64,000 nucleotides of DNA from an uncultured Dehalococcoidia bacterium (GTDB lineage Bacteria; Chloroflexota; Dehalococcoidia; Lucifugimonadales; CATOSD01), in the NCBI GenBank assembly GCA_951812395.1, contig CATOSD010000002.1, positions 1,292,442 through 1,356,441 of the forward strand. The letters run 5' to 3'. Below, one piece after another: positions 6,663 to 58,193 of the stretch. Position numbers and translations under genes: made by a program. The notes beneath the pieces were generated by a model. That model ran no database searches. It was not told the DNA's origin and was given only the letters and a program-made list of their open reading frames with translations. Within the stretch, counting starts at the first letter, position 1, and each line of letters starts with the position of its first letter.

Positions 6663-6691
6663 TTGAAAGTACCGCACATACGTGCTACCCT
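6663..6691 (+). promoter_or_regulatory. sigma70-like promoter with conserved palindromic spacer, copy 1
   Basis: TTGAAA-17 nt (gtaccgcacatacgtgc)-TACCCT; spacer core shared with 45952-45968 and 58171-58187. Confidence 0.6.
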
Positions 6692-6716
6692 CGACCAGGC
6701 GAGGGACAGACCCCGC

Positions 6717-6927
6717 CGGCCCGGAATCCTATACCCCCAGTCGGGATTATGCCCCAGGCATCCGCAGGGGCCTCATGTACTGGCCACTGCCCACCGACCC
6801 CGCTGTCCTGTTCTGCCAGGCGGCGCGACACATGTGCCCGGATATGCCCCGCCGGGCATTACAGATTCGCGCAGGACCGGCGACACTCTCAGCTACGAGG
6901 TGCACAGAATGTCGCAGAATCTAACAG
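6717..6927 (+). repeat. unknown conserved intergenic element / candidate ncRNA, copy 1
   Basis: Alignable to 46022-46258, with an ungapped 3' block (tgccaggcggcgcgacac...gaatgtcgcagaatctaacag); follows a conserved promoter. Confidence 0.6.
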
Positions 6928-7121
6928 AAAATCGCTTCCCCGCATTCGCGGGGCCAACGGTTGGGGGGAGTAGGGTAATCTGAAACAGGTTCTGCCTGTC
7001 GCTCCTCACGTCGCTAGACGGCTGCGAGGCAGGCCGTGTACCATCTGCGGGGCGCGGGCAATGCCCGTCGTAAGGCGCCGACGGCTTAGTGAGGGCAGCA
7101 CCACAACGAGGGGATGAAGGC

Positions 7122-8093
7122 ATGGATGGACTTGCAAACGCGCACCTGGCGGCAATCAGCGAGAGCATCCGTTTTCTGCGAAGCGTAGACTTCTGGTCGC
7201 CGGATTTGCGTTCGGAACTTTTCGGGCTCCAGGACTCGCTTCCGGCCCCAACGGCGCCGGAGACAGCGGGCGAACGGGACGTTGGCTCCTCGCAGTCTTT
7301 GGAGGCCGCGCTTTCCGTCGCCAAGGCCGCTGTCGCTTCAGTCGACGCGCTGGCGGCGCGCCTGGGCGCCGGAATCGACGCAGAGTTGGCCGCGCGCACA
7401 AGTGACGTGCTCGCACGGGCGGCGGACCATGCGGCGGCGAAGGTACGGGCATCGGCGGCCGACAGGGTGCGGGGGCTGTACGTCATAGTCGACCCGGAGG
7501 TGACGAGGGGTCGCCCGATACTGGACGTCGCCGAAGCCTCGTTAAAGGGCGGCGCCAGCGTAGTGCAACTTCGGGACAAATCGCGAGACAAGGGTGAGAT
7601 GCTGCCAGACGCCATAAGACTACAGGCGATGTGTGAGGACTACGGCAGCCTGTTCGTGGTCAACGACGACGCCGACCTGGCCCGAACCGTCAGCTCCCAC
7701 GCTGTGCACGTGGGCCAAACCGACCTGCCGGTTGCCAGTGCCCGCGCTGTGCTCGACGCGAGGCAGCTCGTGGGCACTTCCAACGGCGGCGTAGACGAGG
7801 CGCTACGTTCGCAGGCGGAAGGAGCGGACTACGTAGCCGTGGGCGCCATCTTCGCCACCACCACGATGGGCAAGAGCGGGCGAAGGTCCCTGGGCGTCGA
7901 GGCCATCGCTGAGGTCAAAGATGCCGTATCGATGCCCGTAGTCGCAATTGGGGGAATCAGCCTGGGCAACATCACCGACGTCGTAAGCGCGGGCGCGGAC
8001 AGCGTGTGCGTGGTCAGCGCGGTTACCTTTGCCGATGACCCGGAAACTGCCGCGGCGCGCCTGGTAGAGGCGATGCAGGCGGCGTCCGCCTGA
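7122..8093 (+). CDS. thiE: thiamine phosphate synthase-like protein with ~115-aa N-terminal extension
   Basis: C-terminal part RGLYVIVDPEV, GGASVVQLRDKS, VNDDADLA, HVGQTDLP, VAIGGI; N-terminal helical extension; ATG at 7122 preferred over the 7089 ORF start. Confidence 0.85.
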   Translation: MDGLANAHLAAISESIRFLRSVDFWSPDLRSELFGLQDSLPAPTAPETAGERDVGSSQSLEAALSVAKAAVASVDALAARLGAGIDAELAARTSDVLARAADHAAAKVRASAADRVRGLYVIVDPEVTRGRPILDVAEASLKGGASVVQLRDKSRDKGEMLPDAIRLQAMCEDYGSLFVVNDDADLARTVSSHAVHVGQTDLPVASARAVLDARQLVGTSNGGVDEALRSQAEGADYVAVGAIFATTTMGKSGRRSLGVEAIAEVKDAVSMPVVAIGGISLGNITDVVSAGADSVCVVSAVTFADDPETAAARLVEAMQAASA

Positions 8094-8205: not shown

Positions 8206-8625
8206 TTGGCTGGTTTCTGGTCTGATTCATATAGTTTCTCCAAAGGCGTCGGGAGGAATCGTATGGGGAATGAGGAGACGTTAGGAACCATCTGGGAAGT
8301 ACCGGACGAGCTTTGGGAACGCATCGAGCCTATCATTCTGGAGCGAGACCCACCCAAGGCAAGGGGCCGCAAGCGCGCCAATCCTCGACAGATGCTCAAC
8401 GGCATCATCTTCCGGATGCGCAGCGGGTGTTAATGGAACCGATTGCCGAGAGAGCTTGGGGACGACAGCACGATCCATCGCACCTTTCAGAGGTGGGTGG
8501 AACGGGGAGTCTTGCGCCGAATGTGGGGAGCGTTGGTGGAGGGGTGCGAAGAGTTGGGCGGCGTGGACTGGGAATGGCAGGCTGCGGACGGCGCCATGGG
8601 CAAGGCACGTTTTGGGGGGACCTGA
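8206..8625 (+). pseudogene. IS5-family transposase OrfA, interrupted by an in-frame TAA (8431-8433)
   Basis: RMRSGC*WNRLPREL here vs RMHSGCQWNRLPREL in copy 2 (CAA to TAA). Confidence 0.88.
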
Positions 8626-9098
8626 TTGGGCCCAACCCGACGGACCGTGGCAAGGCTGGTAGCAAGCGGAGTCTCCTTGTGGATGGAGAGGGCGGCCCTT
8701 TGAGCATTGCGGTTGCGGGAGCAAACGTCCATGACGCCAAGTTGTTGGAGGCGACCCTTTCCGCCATTGTGGTCAAGCGGCCGCAGCCCAGGGAGGAGGA
8801 ACCCCAACACCTGTGTCTGGACAAAGGGTATGACAATCCTTCGGGGCGTCGGGCTGCCGCCGGACACGGCTATCGGGAGCACATCCGACGCATCGGAGAG
8901 GAGAAGCTGGACGGCTCTGGACAGAAGCGGTATCCGGCGCGTCGGTGGGTTGTGGAACGGACGCTGGCATGGCTCTCAAAGTGTCGTGCGGTTCTGGTTC
9001 GCTACGATAAGAAGGCGTCGAACTACCTCGGAGTACTGCAACTCGCTTGCACGCTTCTGTGGTTCCGTCGTCAGTGGCGTCTGACTGTTTTGAGATAG
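8313..9098 (+). CDS. IS5-family transposase OrfB frame (DDE part; likely expressed by -1 frameshift at G6, 8614-8619)
   Basis: DLIGPNPTDRGKAGSKRSLLVDGEGGPLSIAVAGANVHD, LDKGYDN, RRWVVERTLAWLSKCRAVLVRYDK. Confidence 0.85.
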   Translation: MGTHRAYHSGARPTQGKGPQARQSSTDAQRHHLPDAQRVLMEPIAERAWGRQHDPSHLSEVGGTGSLAPNVGSVGGGVRRVGRRGLGMAGCGRRHGQGTFWGDLIGPNPTDRGKAGSKRSLLVDGEGGPLSIAVAGANVHDAKLLEATLSAIVVKRPQPREEEPQHLCLDKGYDNPSGRRAAAGHGYREHIRRIGEEKLDGSGQKRYPARRWVVERTLAWLSKCRAVLVRYDKKASNYLGVLQLACTLLWFRRQWRLTVLR

Positions 9099-44232: not shown

Positions 44233-45705
44233 ATGACGGCGTTGTCGGGGTTGCCGGCATACCTGGACCTGGCGTTTGTTGCGCGACTGGGGCAGTCGGT
44301 GCGCCGTCACGTGGGAGTGAGAGAGGGCACACAGGGGTGGACGGACGCCCAGAATGTGACGGCGCTTGTGATGCTCAACCTGGCCGGTGGTGAGTCGGTG
44401 GATGACCTGCGGCTGCTGGAGAAGGACGAGGGGCTGGGCAGGGCGCTGCTCACCGCGGAGACTCACGGGGTGCGGCGGGCAGAGCGCAGGGCGCAGCTCA
44501 GAAGGTGGCGTAAGGAGCGTAGCCGCACTGTGCCGTCGCCCACGGCGGTGTTCAGGTATCTGGACCGTTTCCACGACGAGGCTGAGGAGGCCGGGAGACG
44601 GTCTCGCGGCGCGTTCATACCGGCGGCCAACGACGCGCTGAGAGGGCTTGGGAAGGTCAACGCGGACCTGGTGAGGTTCGCGGGAGGCCATTCAGGACAC
44701 ACCGAAGCGACATTGGACATGGACGCCACGCTGATAGGGACGCACAAGCGGCAGGCGTGCTTCTGCTACAAAAAGCACAAGGCGTACCAGCCGTTGACCA
44801 CCTACTGGCATGAGGCGGACCTTGTGGTGCACTCCGAGTTCAGAGACGGCAACGTGAACGCGGGCTACGAACAGCTCAGGGTGTTGAAGGAGTCGCTGGA
44901 GTGTCTGCCCCCAGGGGTGAGCAAGGTGATGATGAGGTCTGACTCGGCGGGCTACCAGAAGGAGCTGTTGAAGTACTGCGCCGAGGGGCGGGATGAGCGG
45001 TTCGGAGTGATCGAGTTCTGTGTGGGAGTGAACGTGATGGCCGAGTTCAGGGCGGCGGTGAGTGAGGTAGAGGAGGAAGGATGGCACGACCTGTACAGGA
45101 CAGAGGGTGAGCAACGAGAGGCCACAAGACAGCAGTACGCCGAGGTGTGCTACGTGACCAGTTGGACGGGATACAGCAAGAACAGTCCCGACTACAGGTT
45201 CATCGCGATAAGGGAGCGTATGCCGAACCCGCCGCTGTTCGACATGGATGGGGAGAAGCTGTCGGTTCCCGTTATGGAGATGGGAGATGGCAAATTGTAC
45301 AAAGTGACAGGGATGGTGACGAACCGAGAGTTGCCTGGGGATGAGTTGGTCCGGTGGTACAGGCAGAGGTGTGGCAAGGGTGAGGAGGTGCATTCGGTGC
45401 TGAAGGAGGACCTTGCGGGGGGCAGGCTGCCGTCGGGGAAGTTCGGGTCGAACGCGGCGTGGTGGGCTATAGTGGTGTTGGCGTTCAATCTGAACTCAGC
45501 GATGAAGCGGCTGGTGTTGGGGGAAGAGTGGGCGAGCAAGCGTCTGAAGGCGGTGCGCTTCGGCGTAATCTGCGTTGCGGGGCGAGTGGTCAGACACGCA
45601 AGGAGGCTCATCATCCGTCTCGCGAGAGGACACCCAACCCATGACCTGCTCGTGAGTGCGCAACGCAGGATACACGCTCTGGCAAACACGCCGCTCCGGG
45701 CCTGA
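44233..45705 (+). CDS. IS1380-type transposase
   Basis: 490 aa; WTDAQNVTALVMLNLAGGESVDDL, TLDMDATLIGTHKRQACFCYKKHKAYQPL, VMMRSDSAGYQKELLKYC, WYRQRCGKGEEVHSVLKEDLAGGRLPSGKFGSNAAWW. Confidence 0.88.
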   Translation: MTALSGLPAYLDLAFVARLGQSVRRHVGVREGTQGWTDAQNVTALVMLNLAGGESVDDLRLLEKDEGLGRALLTAETHGVRRAERRAQLRRWRKERSRTVPSPTAVFRYLDRFHDEAEEAGRRSRGAFIPAANDALRGLGKVNADLVRFAGGHSGHTEATLDMDATLIGTHKRQACFCYKKHKAYQPLTTYWHEADLVVHSEFRDGNVNAGYEQLRVLKESLECLPPGVSKVMMRSDSAGYQKELLKYCAEGRDERFGVIEFCVGVNVMAEFRAAVSEVEEEGWHDLYRTEGEQREATRQQYAEVCYVTSWTGYSKNSPDYRFIAIRERMPNPPLFDMDGEKLSVPVMEMGDGKLYKVTGMVTNRELPGDELVRWYRQRCGKGEEVHSVLKEDLAGGRLPSGKFGSNAAWWAIVVLAFNLNSAMKRLVLGEEWASKRLKAVRFGVICVAGRVVRHARRLIIRLARGHPTHDLLVSAQRRIHALANTPLRA

Positions 45706-45945: not shown

Positions 45946-45974
45946 TTGTAACATGCGTACATCCGTGCTATCAT
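45946..45974 (+). promoter_or_regulatory. sigma70-like promoter with conserved palindromic spacer, copy 2
   Basis: TTGTAA-17 nt (catgcgtacatccgtgc)-TATCAT. Confidence 0.62.
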
Positions 45975-46021: not shown

Positions 46022-46258
46022 CGGCCCGGAAGCATAACCCCAAATGGGATCATGCCCCAAGCATACGTAGAGGCGTCCCTTCCGAACGCCCTGCGGCAGC
46101 GAAGGTACGGCTGGCTGACCCTGCTCCGTCCGACTGTCCCACTCTGCCACGCGGTGCGACACTTATGCCCCGAACTGCCCACGCAGGCATTACAGAATTG
46201 CGAACGACAACCGAAACTCCCAGCTAGGGATTGCGCAGAATGTCGCGGAATCTAACAG
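46022..46258 (+). repeat. unknown conserved intergenic element / candidate ncRNA, copy 2
   Basis: Homologous to 6717-6927; identical or near-identical blocks include cggcccggaa, atgccccaNgcat, gcattacag, gaatgtcgcNgaatctaacag. Confidence 0.6.
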
Positions 46259-46294
46259 ATTTCGCCTTCCCGCCCCCATTCGTCATACCCGCGC

Positions 46295-46355: not shown

Positions 46356-46384
46356 TTGACAAGCGGGAATCGTTGCAATATCTT
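46356..46384 (+). promoter_or_regulatory. sigma70 promoter of the Fur-family regulator gene
   Basis: TTGACA-17 nt-TATCTT. Confidence 0.6.
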
Positions 46385-46468: not shown

Positions 46469-46924
46469 TTGACCGCCACCGAGAGACAGAGGCTATTTGA
46501 GATGCGGACCGCCCTCAAGCGTAGAGGGACCCGCCTGACGCCGCGCCGCGACAAGATGCTCGAGGTGCTCGTCTCGAGCAAGCGCCACCCAAGCGCCAGC
46601 GAGATCCATGAAGAAGTCAGGCGCTTTCACCCCCGCACAAGCCTCGCAACCATCTACAACACCATAGAGCTACTCAAAGAGGCCGGGCAGCTGCTGGAGA
46701 TCGAATTCAGCGGCGCGGCCAACCGTTACGATGGCAGGCGCAGCCACCATCACCCCCACCTTATCTGCCTGCATTGCGAGAAGATCGAAGACCTGGATTC
46801 GGTCGACCATGACGAACCGCTGGACGACCTGTCCAGCGAAACAGGCTACGAAATCACGGGCCGCCGGATGGACTACTACGGTATGTGCCCGGACTGCCAG
46901 TCTGGACGAACGGTACAGCCCTGA
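46469..46924 (+). CDS. Fur family transcriptional regulator (Fur/PerR-like)
   Basis: RRGTRLTPRRDKMLEVLVSSKRHPSASEIHEEVRRFHPRTSLATIYNTIELLKEAG; HHHPHLICLHC; CPDC; TTG start. Confidence 0.92.
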   Translation: MTATERQRLFEMRTALKRRGTRLTPRRDKMLEVLVSSKRHPSASEIHEEVRRFHPRTSLATIYNTIELLKEAGQLLEIEFSGAANRYDGRRSHHHPHLICLHCEKIEDLDSVDHDEPLDDLSSETGYEITGRRMDYYGMCPDCQSGRTVQP

Positions 46925-54666: not shown

Positions 54667-55083
54667 CTAGCCCAGCCGCCGCGAGTCCAGGTAGCTTTGG
54701 AGGATCACCGCCGCGGCGGCTGAGTCAAGCCTCCCCTTTTCACGCGAGGTTTCCACACCCTGGCCGCGCAGCAGCTTCTCGGCTTGGGCCGTAGACAGGC
54801 GCTCGTCCACCGTCGTGACAGGCACCTCGACCAGGCCGGCGAGCTCGCGCACGAATGCCGCCACGCGCCCCGCCTGGCGTCCCCGCGCGCCCGACATCGA
54901 GTAGGGCATGCCGACTACGATTTCGCTCAGCGCCATGCTAGACGCACGGCGCGCGGCCACTTCGTGGGCGGGTTCGTGGCCGTCCAGCTCCAGCGCCTCG
55001 ATGGGCGACGCCAGCAGTCCCGTGGGGTCGCTGAGCGCGAGGCCGATGCGCCTCTCACCCATGTCGAGCGCGAGAATCCTCAT
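54667..55083 (-). CDS. ruvX: Holliday junction resolvase-like protein RuvX (YqgF family)
   Basis: MRILALDMGERRIGLALSDPTGLLASP; VTTVDERLST; LDSAAAAVILQSYLD. Confidence 0.93.
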   Translation of the reverse strand: MRILALDMGERRIGLALSDPTGLLASPIEALELDGHEPAHEVAARRASSMALSEIVVGMPYSMSGARGRQAGRVAAFVRELAGLVEVPVTTVDERLSTAQAEKLLRGQGVETSREKGRLDSAAAAVILQSYLDSRRLG

Positions 55084-57728
55084 TCGGCCTGGCTCTCGCG
55101 GACCAGACCGGGCACCAGCGCCAGGGCGTCGTCCAGCCTGTCGGCGCGCCGACCGCCGGCCTGAGCCACGTCCGGCCGTCCGCCGCCGCCGCCCTGGATC
55201 GCCTTTGCGGCGCCCCTGGCGATCACGCTGGCGTCCAGGCCCTGCTCGACGAGGTCGGCGGTCACCATGGACACCAGCAGCGGCCGATCGCCCACAACTG
55301 ACCCCAACACCACAACGCCGCTGCCGAGCTTGTCGCGCAACCAGTCGCCCACCTCGCGCAGGGAGTCGGCACTGGTAGCTGTCGTCCTGGCGGCAAGCAC
55401 GCTGACCCCGCCGACGTCCTGACAGTCCGCGAGCAGACTCTCCGCTGCCAGCAGTGACTGGCGTCTCTCCAGCGCGGCGAGCGCCCGATTCGCCTCATCC
55501 AGCGAGGCAACCAGCGACTCTACCCTGTCCTCTGCCTCCGTGGGTGGAACCTGAAGCCTGCGCGCCACGGCCTCTTCACGACGGAAGCGCTCCCATACCA
55601 GCCGCTCCGCTGCGCGCCCGCTTACCGCCTCGATGCGCCGCATTCCCGCGCCGACGCTGGACTCACCGAGGACGTACACCGCGCCCAGTTCGCCCGTGCG
55701 CTCGACGTGAGTCCCGCCGCACACCTCGAAGCTGAACGTCGCGCCGTTCGCGATCTCGATCAGGCGCACGCGGTCGCCGTACCTATCTCCGAAGAACGCG
55801 AGCGCGCCCCTGTTGATGGCCGACGTGTAGGTGTCCTCGCTCTTTACGATGCGCGCGTTCTGGCGCAGCTTCTCGTTCACCAGTAGCTGCACCTGCCACA
55901 TCTCCTCGTCCGTGACCGGCTGGACGTGGGAGAAGTCGAACCGCAGCCGGTCGGGGGCGACGAGCGAGCCCGCCTGCCTCACGTGCGGGCCGAGCACCTG
56001 GCGCAGCGCGGCGTGCAGCAGGTGGGTGGCGGTGTGATTGCGCGCGGTATCCTCCCGCCGAATCTCGTCTACGTAGGCTTCTACGCTATCTCCCAGCGCG
56101 AATGCGCCGGCGGACACACTGCCGAAGTGGACGATCACTCCGGGCATCACCTCGCGCGTGTCGTGAACCTCCACGCTCCCGTTCGGCCCGATGAGCTGGC
56201 CGGCGTCCCCGATCTGGCCGCCGCCTTCCGGATAGAACGGCGTCTCGACGAGCACTACCTCGACCTCGCCGCCGGCGCCGGCGTCGGTCGCGAGCTCGTC
56301 TCCGCTGATCAGGCCGACCACCACCGAGCTCGCCGTGAGCTGCTCGTAGCCCAGGAAGCTAGTAGCGCCGACGGCCATGCTCTCGTAGACCCGGATTTTG
56401 GCGCGGTCGCCGCCGAACCGCGCCGTGGCGCGGGCGCGCTCCCGCTGAGAGGCCATCTGCTCCTCGAAGCCGGCCATGTCAACTTCGACGCCCCGCTCCC
56501 CCGCAATCTCGGTGGTCATCTCCACCGGGAATCCGTAGGTGTCCCAGAGCCGGAACACCATCTCGCCGGGCAGCGAGTCGGCGCCATCCAACGCCTCAGA
56601 CAGCGCCTCGTAGCCGTTGCGGAACGCCTGTTGGAAGCGCTCCTCCTCCAGCCTAAGCACGGTCAGGATGAAGTCCTGGTGATTGCGGAGTTCGGGGTAG
56701 ATGTGGCCCATCTGCGCGATGACCCCGCCCGCCACGTCGCCAAGGAACGCCCCCTCCAGTCCAAGCTGCCGCCCGTGGCGTATCGCGCGGCGGACCACCC
56801 GGCGCAGCACGTATCCCCTGCCCTCGTTGCCCGGCACCACGCCGTCGCCGATGAGGAACGTCGAACTGCGGGCGTGCTCTGCGACGACGCGCATGGCGTA
56901 GTCGTCGGCCTCGTCGGCTCCGTAGCGTCGCCCCGACAGCGCCTCCACGCGGGCGAGCAGCGGCAGAAACAGGTCGGTCTCGTAGATCGTGGTCACGCCC
57001 TGCATGACTACGGCGGCCCGCTCCAGGCCCATGCCGGTGTCCACGCTAGGGGCGGGCAGCGGGTCTCGCGTACCGTCCAGGTGGTGGTAGTATTGCATGA
57101 AGACCAGATTCCACAGCTCCACGTACCGGTCGCAGGCGTCTCCGGCGCCGTTCCTGGGAAAGGCGCAGTTGGGGCCGCAGTCTGGCCGCAGGCATCCCCT
57201 GCCCTCTCCAAAGTCGAAGTGGAGCTCACTGCACGGGCCGCACGGCCCCTCCAGTCCGGCCGGACCCCACCAGTTGTCCTCGTCGCCGAACCGGTAAATC
57301 TCGTCCGCGGCGATGCCGACGTCACGCCAGAGCTGAAAACTCTCGTCGTCGGTGTCGTGGATGGTGATGGCGAATCGCTCTTTGGCCAGGCCGAACTGCG
57401 TTTCGAAGAACTCCAGCGCGAAGGCTATAGCCTCCTTCTTGAAGTACTCGCCGATGCTGAAGTTGCCCAGCATTTCGAACATCGTGAGATGGGTCGAGTC
57501 TCCCACCTCGTCTATGTCGACGGTGCGAAACGACTTCTGGGACGACGTAAGCCGCCTGTTGGGTGGCTCGGCCTCGCCGGAGAAGTACGGCTTGAACTGG
57601 ACCATGCCCGCCGACGTGAGCAGCAGCGTCGGGTCGCCGACCGGTATCAGCGAGGAGCTCGCGACGCGAGTGTGCGCCTTGCTCTCAAAGTAGCTAAGGA
57701 ACCGCTCGCGAATGTCGTTGCTGTTCAT
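55080..57728 (-). CDS. alaS: alanine--tRNA ligase
   Basis: MNSNDIRERFLSYFESKAHTRVASSSLIPVGDPTLLLTSAGMVQFKPYF; NHTATHLLHAALRQVLG; CGGTH; overlaps ruvX by 4 nt. The ORF-track start at 58214 lies beyond the promoter and is rejected. Confidence 0.96.
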   Translation of the reverse strand: MNSNDIRERFLSYFESKAHTRVASSSLIPVGDPTLLLTSAGMVQFKPYFSGEAEPPNRRLTSSQKSFRTVDIDEVGDSTHLTMFEMLGNFSIGEYFKKEAIAFALEFFETQFGLAKERFAITIHDTDDESFQLWRDVGIAADEIYRFGDEDNWWGPAGLEGPCGPCSELHFDFGEGRGCLRPDCGPNCAFPRNGAGDACDRYVELWNLVFMQYYHHLDGTRDPLPAPSVDTGMGLERAAVVMQGVTTIYETDLFLPLLARVEALSGRRYGADEADDYAMRVVAEHARSSTFLIGDGVVPGNEGRGYVLRRVVRRAIRHGRQLGLEGAFLGDVAGGVIAQMGHIYPELRNHQDFILTVLRLEEERFQQAFRNGYEALSEALDGADSLPGEMVFRLWDTYGFPVEMTTEIAGERGVEVDMAGFEEQMASQRERARATARFGGDRAKIRVYESMAVGATSFLGYEQLTASSVVVGLISGDELATDAGAGGEVEVVLVETPFYPEGGGQIGDAGQLIGPNGSVEVHDTREVMPGVIVHFGSVSAGAFALGDSVEAYVDEIRREDTARNHTATHLLHAALRQVLGPHVRQAGSLVAPDRLRFDFSHVQPVTDEEMWQVQLLVNEKLRQNARIVKSEDTYTSAINRGALAFFGDRYGDRVRLIEIANGATFSFEVCGGTHVERTGELGAVYVLGESSVGAGMRRIEAVSGRAAERLVWERFRREEAVARRLQVPPTEAEDRVESLVASLDEANRALAALERRQSLLAAESLLADCQDVGGVSVLAARTTATSADSLREVGDWLRDKLGSGVVVLGSVVGDRPLLVSMVTADLVEQGLDASVIARGAAKAIQGGGGGRPDVAQAGGRRADRLDDALALVPGLVRESQAE

Positions 57729-58164
57729 AGTCTCGCACCTGGATTTCTTCAGACTGGAGGAGGGCTTGCGCGCTTTAGACGCGGAATTGGCCTGAGTGCA
57801 GGAAATGGTAGGCAATACAGCCTCGCCAGTCAACCGGCGTCGTGGCTTCCGGGCTGTGCTTTCTCCTAGGCTCCAGACAGTTTGCGCGGGCCGCTCGGGC
57901 ACGACTCCATGCACGTTACAGACAAGGCCTTCGCCGAAAGTGTCTCGTATTGTGTTTTTCGTAGCTGGCGGGTATCTCATACAGGGCGGTTGGTGTAGTT
58001 CATCTGTCCTGTTTTGACGGGAATTTGGCGTGTGTGGCAGGTGTCTGGTGACGGAATGGGAGTGGGTGTCTCTCGCATGGCTTGGGCGTCTGGTGAGGGG
58101 CGTGGCGAGGCCTGCCGAGCGCCTGGGGCCGGTGGTGATGTTGCTGGTGGTGTTCATGCGGAGA

Positions 58165-58193
58165 ACGATAGCACGGATGTGCGGATATGTCAA
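58165..58193 (-). promoter_or_regulatory. sigma70-like promoter with conserved palindromic spacer, copy 3 (alaS leader)
   Basis: Minus strand TTGACA-17 nt (tatccgcacatccgtgc)-TATCGT. Confidence 0.65.

Follow-up and report, generated by a model that had tools for sequence, protein, structure and literature searches.

Three LexA-type promoters of a Dehalococcoidia genome as probable copies of a dispersed, pac-like packaging element

The window—the whole analysed stretch of 64,000 nucleotides from an uncultured Dehalococcoidia bacterium—carries three promoter sites that are probably copies of an SOS-controlled, pac-like packaging element of a dispersed gene-transfer-agent-like (GTA-like) system, most copies being devoid of a gene. 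The sites share one promoter type and one downstream module, the family is associated with terminase genes, and its many copies are spread through intergenic DNA. The element opens with a sigma70 promoter, P1, whose spacer is a putative LexA (SOS) operator and which, because of this operator, should stay silent under LexA repression until DNA damage induces it. P1 is followed by a leader, a CCCAGCTAYGAA box, and a 10-bp-phased array that, in complete copies, is the 5′ end of a gene for a TerS-like (small-terminase-like) helix-turn-helix (HTH) protein. About 110 copies lie between genes and upstream of ordinary ones, with promoter, leader, and array kept and the gene mostly gone. In the proposed mechanism, the packaging system would be SOS-induced, and its TerS-like protein would recognise the array as a pac-like start. 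Copies without the gene would supply additional starts for packaging and incidentally aim SOS promoters at neighbouring genes.

The window sites and their downstream module

The original prediction had described three promoters sharing a spacer. Positions, strands, and the 17-nt length of each spacer were confirmed, and the window has no other strong match. The shared spacer stood but is not the whole extent of the likeness: the downstream module, too, is common to all three sites. With ≤1 mismatch allowed, the core CGYACATMCGTGC is matched just three times in the window versus 0.64 expected. Scored with a weight matrix from 63 genomic copies—the three window sites among them—the sites reach 44.6, 43.1, and 42.5 bits and are the top three in the window; 20 shuffled windows give a maximum of 9.1 bits.

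Site 1 is a class A element on the plus strand. Its LexA-type P1, TTGAAA-N17-TACCCT, occupies positions 6663 to 6691 and contains the palindromic SOS-box core CGCACATACGTGC (6673 to 6685), the 3′ end of which doubles as an extended −10 (TGCTA). The leader motif GAGGGACAGACC (6701 to 6712) recurs behind P1 of the terL operon of the same genome, and its versions GAGGGACTGACC or GGGACTGACCC occur in three other families of the order. Further downstream follow the conserved motif M (CTGTCCTGTTCTGCC, 6803 to 6817), which looks like an inverted array unit, the CAGCTACG box (6888 to 6897), and the 10-bp-phased array CAGAATGTCGCAGAATCTAACAGA (6905 to 6928), which corresponds to the 5′ end of the small-terminase-like ORF in complete copies. 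The host gene downstream is thiE-like and co-directional (7122 to 8093, plus strand). Downstream of it lies a transposase-like ORF of 261 aa (8313 to 9098).

Site 2, also class A and on the plus strand, features P1 as TTGTAA-N17-TATCAT (45946 to 45974) with the SOS-box core CGTACATCCGTGC (45956 to 45968), motif M as CTGTCCCACTCTGCC (46134 to 46148), the CCCAGCTAGG box (46219 to 46228), and the array CAGAATGTCGCGGAATCTAACAGA (46236 to 46259). TTGACA-N17-TATCTT at 46356 to 46384 (plus strand) may be a second promoter, P2; it is without the conserved spacer and closer to the host gene than P1. This gene is a co-directional Fur-family gene (46502 to 46924, plus strand). Directly upstream of site 2 is a transposase-like ORF of 490 aa (44233 to 45705), and a AGGCGGTGGATTTGGG stretch adjoining P1 is also found upstream of several other copies (loci L008, L015, L019, and L033).

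Site 3 lies on the minus strand and belongs to class B. P1 reads TTGACA-N17-TATCGT (58165 to 58193), and its SOS-box core is CGCACATCCGTGC (58171 to 58183). Motif M (CACTCCCATTCCG, 58052 to 58064), the GCCAGCTACG box (57960 to 57969), and a short array, AACACAATACGAGACACTTTCGG (57934 to 57956), follow, all on the minus strand like the possible second promoter P2, TTGACT-N17-TACCAT (57805 to 57833), and the co-directional alaS (55080 to 57728). The separate ncRNA candidates that had been proposed for sites 1 and 2 were not supported: the stretch in question consists of the leader and the first codons of the small-terminase-like gene, the remainder of which is missing. Site 3 has a version of this conserved stretch as well.

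Many copies show a GAGGGACNGACC motif behind P1; the module further comprises a motif of the CTGTCC type, the CCCAGCTAYGAA box, and the array. The box is present in 54 of the 63 copies versus 1.6 expected from shuffled sequence, and control searches gave 4 in the upstream region and 1 on the reverse strand. Past the box, self-similarity is highest at 10 bp (0.48) and at 20 bp (0.40), the background being near 0.25. Among 20 P1 sites of looser match, most were likewise seen on inspection to have box and array. A pairing between motif M and the array, as RNA or as an inverted site, was considered and set aside: its score within elements is above that of shuffled pairs (equalled in 46 of 5000 shuffles), and no claim is made because a same-strand control is equally significant (14 of 2000). 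A leader peptide encoded by short ORFs behind P1 was likewise rejected, the ATG not being kept between copies.

The genome-wide family and its spacer

The genome around the window comprises 3.69 Mb on two contigs. The genome-wide motif search that the original prediction had called for was carried out as pattern searches: TTG-N8-GNAC-N4-GTNC-TANNNT has 113 matches and the reversed pattern 0, a difference that rules out chance or ordinary extended −10 promoters as the source. At ≤1 mismatch, CRYACATMCGTGC has 131 matches and its reversed pattern 15. TA directly follows the core in 68 of 70 exact cores. Gene context was assessed at 49 sites with genes called by a simple codon-usage caller. Frequent occurrence inside coding sequences or random orientation had been named as speaking against the prediction; none of the 49 annotated sites lies inside a gene, and the next gene is co-directional at 46 of them (two-sided binomial p 7e-11 against one half, which is a rough null because the long intergenic gaps in the examined stretches are mostly divergent or co-directional). 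The genes that follow are of mixed function—thiE, fur, alaS, argC, pyrF, rplU, nrdR, and others—and many of them have a promoter-like site of their own behind the array. The idea of a mobile promoter cassette is borne out insofar as the module is dispersed and present in many copies.

Alignment of the 63 copies shows a TTGA-rich −35 and a −10 with a nearly invariant second base A and last base T around a variable middle, a conservation pattern matching that of a sigma70 promoter. The invariance of the 13-base core in this set is not evidence because the search pattern demanded that core; the evidence for the spacer is the count relative to the controls, together with looser sites that keep GNAC-N4-GTNC. 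P1 is better conserved than the remaining element. Class A, to which sites 1 and 2 belong, consists of near-duplicates (n = 33) conserved over at least 170 bp upstream and more than 250 nt downstream of P1. In class B, represented by site 3, the motifs (promoter, M, box, and array) are common, and the sequence between them is dissimilar. Among 250 genomes of the order, the high copy number is found only here, an unrelated repeat in one other genome (G197) aside.

The reading that best fits the conserved spacer is a LexA (SOS) box within a sigma70 promoter, and the earlier proposal of an operator between −35 and −10 is supported. A palindromic box in this position, as in promoters of LexA regulons, is present at 113 sites and absent from the control. 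LexA/SOS promoters of the Gram-positive type likewise carry a palindromic box with a 4-nt centre inside a sigma70 promoter. A relaxed pattern, TTG-N7-CGNACATNCGTGCTANNNT, was scanned in 85,462 genomes, one per species. Among the matches listed are promoters of recA, dinG-like helicase, lexA, dinB/umuC-like, ssb, radA, and splB-like genes, named by reading their translations, and most of the listed matches are in Chloroflexota and Clostridia. The canonical box of Bacillus subtilis and other Gram-positives is GAAC-N4-GTTC (PMC4234289). It is matched by CGAACCATATGTTC, found at the spacer position in a genome of a sister family (G003), whereas the half-sites here are mostly GYAC-N4-GTGC. The single lexA of the genome, whose product carries LexA_DNA_bind and Peptidase_S24 domains, is preceded by one copy at a distance of about 440 nt; taken alone, this coincidence is weak because roughly 100 copies are distributed over about 3,300 genes (an estimate). 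The recA gene of this genome has no matching box. Predicted control of the family by LexA is well supported. The family resembles a LexA/SOS regulon in an apparently autoregulated lexA and in the core preceding recA, dinG-like, dinB, and lexA genes in other genomes. It differs from known LexA regulons in its half-sites, in having more than 110 copies, and in that most of these precede non-repair genes.

Packaging operons and TerS-like genes

The only terL of the genome is followed by a portal gene, and this sole terminase–portal operon is headed by the complete module, P1 and array. The only capsid gene found is at a separate locus, in an operon with protease, head–tail adaptor, and tail terminator genes. 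Its promoter is also LexA-type as judged by its pattern—TTGACA-N18-TACTAT with GAAC-GTCC-GTAC, hence an 18-nt spacer—and this operon has no array. The link of the element family to packaging genes is well supported. Among further families of the order, G003 (family f4) has eight terS-like genes behind LexA-type promoters, and terL directly follows four of the eight, giving intact promoter–terS–terL modules; many CAGCTACGAA boxes and locus-specific 10–11-bp repeats accompany them. G010 (family f11) features LexA-type promoters at terL and at capsid operons, and G056 (family f23) one complete promoter–terS element. Of 247 genomes examined in the order, 91 have terL homologs; a genome of family f41 has about one, and the number reaches eight in family f19 (G040 and G045). 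In the two f41 genomes examined, the terL operon has no LexA-type promoter.

A circulating viral origin was rejected: IMG/VR holds no viral contig relatives of the G003 terL, no relatives of the TerS-like protein, and no instance of the P1 pattern. Compared with the best-listed phage records, TerL does not exceed about 32% identity. Genes for capsid, portal, and terminase appear to be kept by the host as one terL–portal and one capsid operon, recurrently in the order. The packaging genes are consistent with a host-maintained, GTA-like set; RcGTA and other GTAs likewise have single-copy terL–portal and capsid operons at separate loci, and the terL count of about one per genome across f41 and the distance from phage terL add to the likeness. 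Beside the portal gene (L277, 10949 to 17666), there is a segmental duplication in which GMP-reductase/IMPDH-like, Uma2-like, and TolB-like β-propeller genes as well as the portal C terminus are present twice.

The genome encodes four TerS-like HTH genes, all four preceded by P1 variants and none adjoining terL. In three, the array coincides with the ORF start (e.g., ATGGAACAAAACGGAACACATTTCGC in L321); in the fourth, L322, an array is not evident. The similarity to small terminases is strong for the G003 protein (phrog_4044, 1.3e-17) and weaker for that of this genome (phrog_2538, 5e-10; PF13022, 1.5e-7). Comparison of profiles shows the HTH to be common to both groups (E 3e-8 across 44 columns), and its superfamily also includes transposases. 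The structure model of the TerS-like protein is all-helical (pLDDT 77, pTM 0.51), and its best PDB match, phBC6A51 (2ao9), is weak (E 0.056). A second small ORF lies behind three TerS-like genes here and one in G056. This conserved ORF of about 100 aa is seen at L310 (3113 to 3418), L321, L322, and L316; the L310 ORF has no PHROGs or Pfam family over the cut-off.

The TerS-like ORF is missing from nearly all copies. Identity between truncated and complete copies falls to background about 10–20 nt past the array, and the dispersed copies therefore look like promoter, leader, and first codons with the remainder of the gene gone. Ten of 69 copies have an ORF of ≥100 aa that begins within the array, a count that is no proof of retained genes because some of these ORFs are open frames entering neighbouring genes.

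A pac function of the array is suggested by its position—the pac of phage P22 lies within terS (PMC9611059)—by its helical phasing, and by its association with terS-like genes across families. Against it speak the weaker small-terminase similarity in this genome and the weak fold match. Like the terS/pac modules of the headful phages P22 and SPP1, the element has a recognition-like sequence where a terS-like gene starts, adjacent to terL in the sister family. The present system differs from their pac in its about 110 dispersed, mostly gene-less copies and in that IMG/VR gave no viral contig relatives.

Readings of the gene-less copies

That the gene-less copies are inert, MITE-like remnants of a once mobile promoter–terS element is possible, if doubtful. 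The 33 class A near-duplicates with their upstream conservation, the loss of the TerS-like ORF, and the confinement of the high copy number to this genome (G197 aside) fit remnants; yet class B copies keep almost only the motifs amid dissimilar sequence, as under selection, the sites are co-directional with the next gene at 46 of 49 positions and never within genes, and an unsystematic look identified neither target duplications nor terminal inverted repeats. An expanded SOS regulon, in which the module was recruited as a damage-inducible promoter for about 100 housekeeping genes under LexA, is unlikely: it would account for the co-directional placement upstream of genes and for the conservation of the promoter above the rest of the element, but not for the mixed functions of the downstream genes or the promoter-like sites that many of them have past the array, and it leaves box and array unexplained. 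Both of these readings are compatible with an earlier packaging role.

The departure of GYAC-N4-GTGC from the canonical box and the lack of a box at recA here would suit another regulator, such as the TerS-like HTH protein, binding the spacer with LexA uninvolved. This is quite improbable in view of the core, which stands before recA, lexA, dinB, and dinG-like genes in other genomes and before lexA in this one, and of the capsid operon, which has the spacer motif and no array. Scarcely credible is the reading as regulatory small RNAs that form one multi-copy family and share a promoter. The long downstream conservation of class A and a hairpin-like GAGG repeat behind the −10 are in its favour, but the Rfam search of the window returned no family at the cut-off, complete copies show that the conserved end belongs to the 5′ part of a protein-coding gene, and class B copies have no extended common sequence.

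Under the preferred reading as pac-like packaging elements, the closest known systems differ in several respects. Phage-inducible chromosomal islands (PICIs) and other phage satellites are small SOS-linked elements with their own TerS that steers packaging. The copies described here differ from PICIs in having no integrase, replication, or regulatory genes, in being mostly gene-less, and in measuring about 300 bp. PICIs redirect packaging (PMC6739421). The TerS of RcGTA is without a specific DNA-binding domain, as opposed to the HTH TerS-like protein and candidate start sites found here. Discrete packaging start sites were not known for GTAs as of 2019, and packaging was thought to be random (PMC6854486). 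That more than 100 SOS-controlled, dedicated starts of a dispersed GTA-like system let damage trigger a packaging of host DNA that begins at defined points next to genes instead of randomly is advanced with considerable doubt. If true, it would connect the SOS response, phage-type packaging, and the regulatory DNA before ordinary genes, and the many discrete candidate starts make directed packaging of host DNA testable by sequencing of particle DNA. Even as remnants, the copies would form an unusually large set of LexA-type promoters before unrelated genes, and similar modules in G003, G010, and G056 offer a comparative handle across the families of the order.

Several repeats were noted in addition. 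A class A element at L002 (about 1570 to 1830) has a leader with a tandem unit of about 34 nt (GGGGCATCCCTTGTGGGCGCCCTATGGCAGCTA). The repeat of G197, a genome of the same order, gave 57 pattern hits and was rejected as a second expansion of the element, being a different near-identical repeat without boxes. Its 57 copies of about 400 bp (e.g., L219–L226) carry another LexA-like promoter (CGAACATCGGTACTATACT or CGAACATAAGTCCTATACT) and stop where a different ORF (MNPAHHL...) begins, which is cut short in most copies examined; the repeat seems to be a parallel from a different family. In the present genome (G000), promoter copies of one identical sequence, TTGACACGCCAGCACATCCGTGCTAACAT, whose leader and array are also nearly the same (L323 and L324), suggest a second recent amplification within the element family; they lie at 404893, 867547, 1834224, 1843604, and 2081012 of contig C1 and at 66613 of contig C2.
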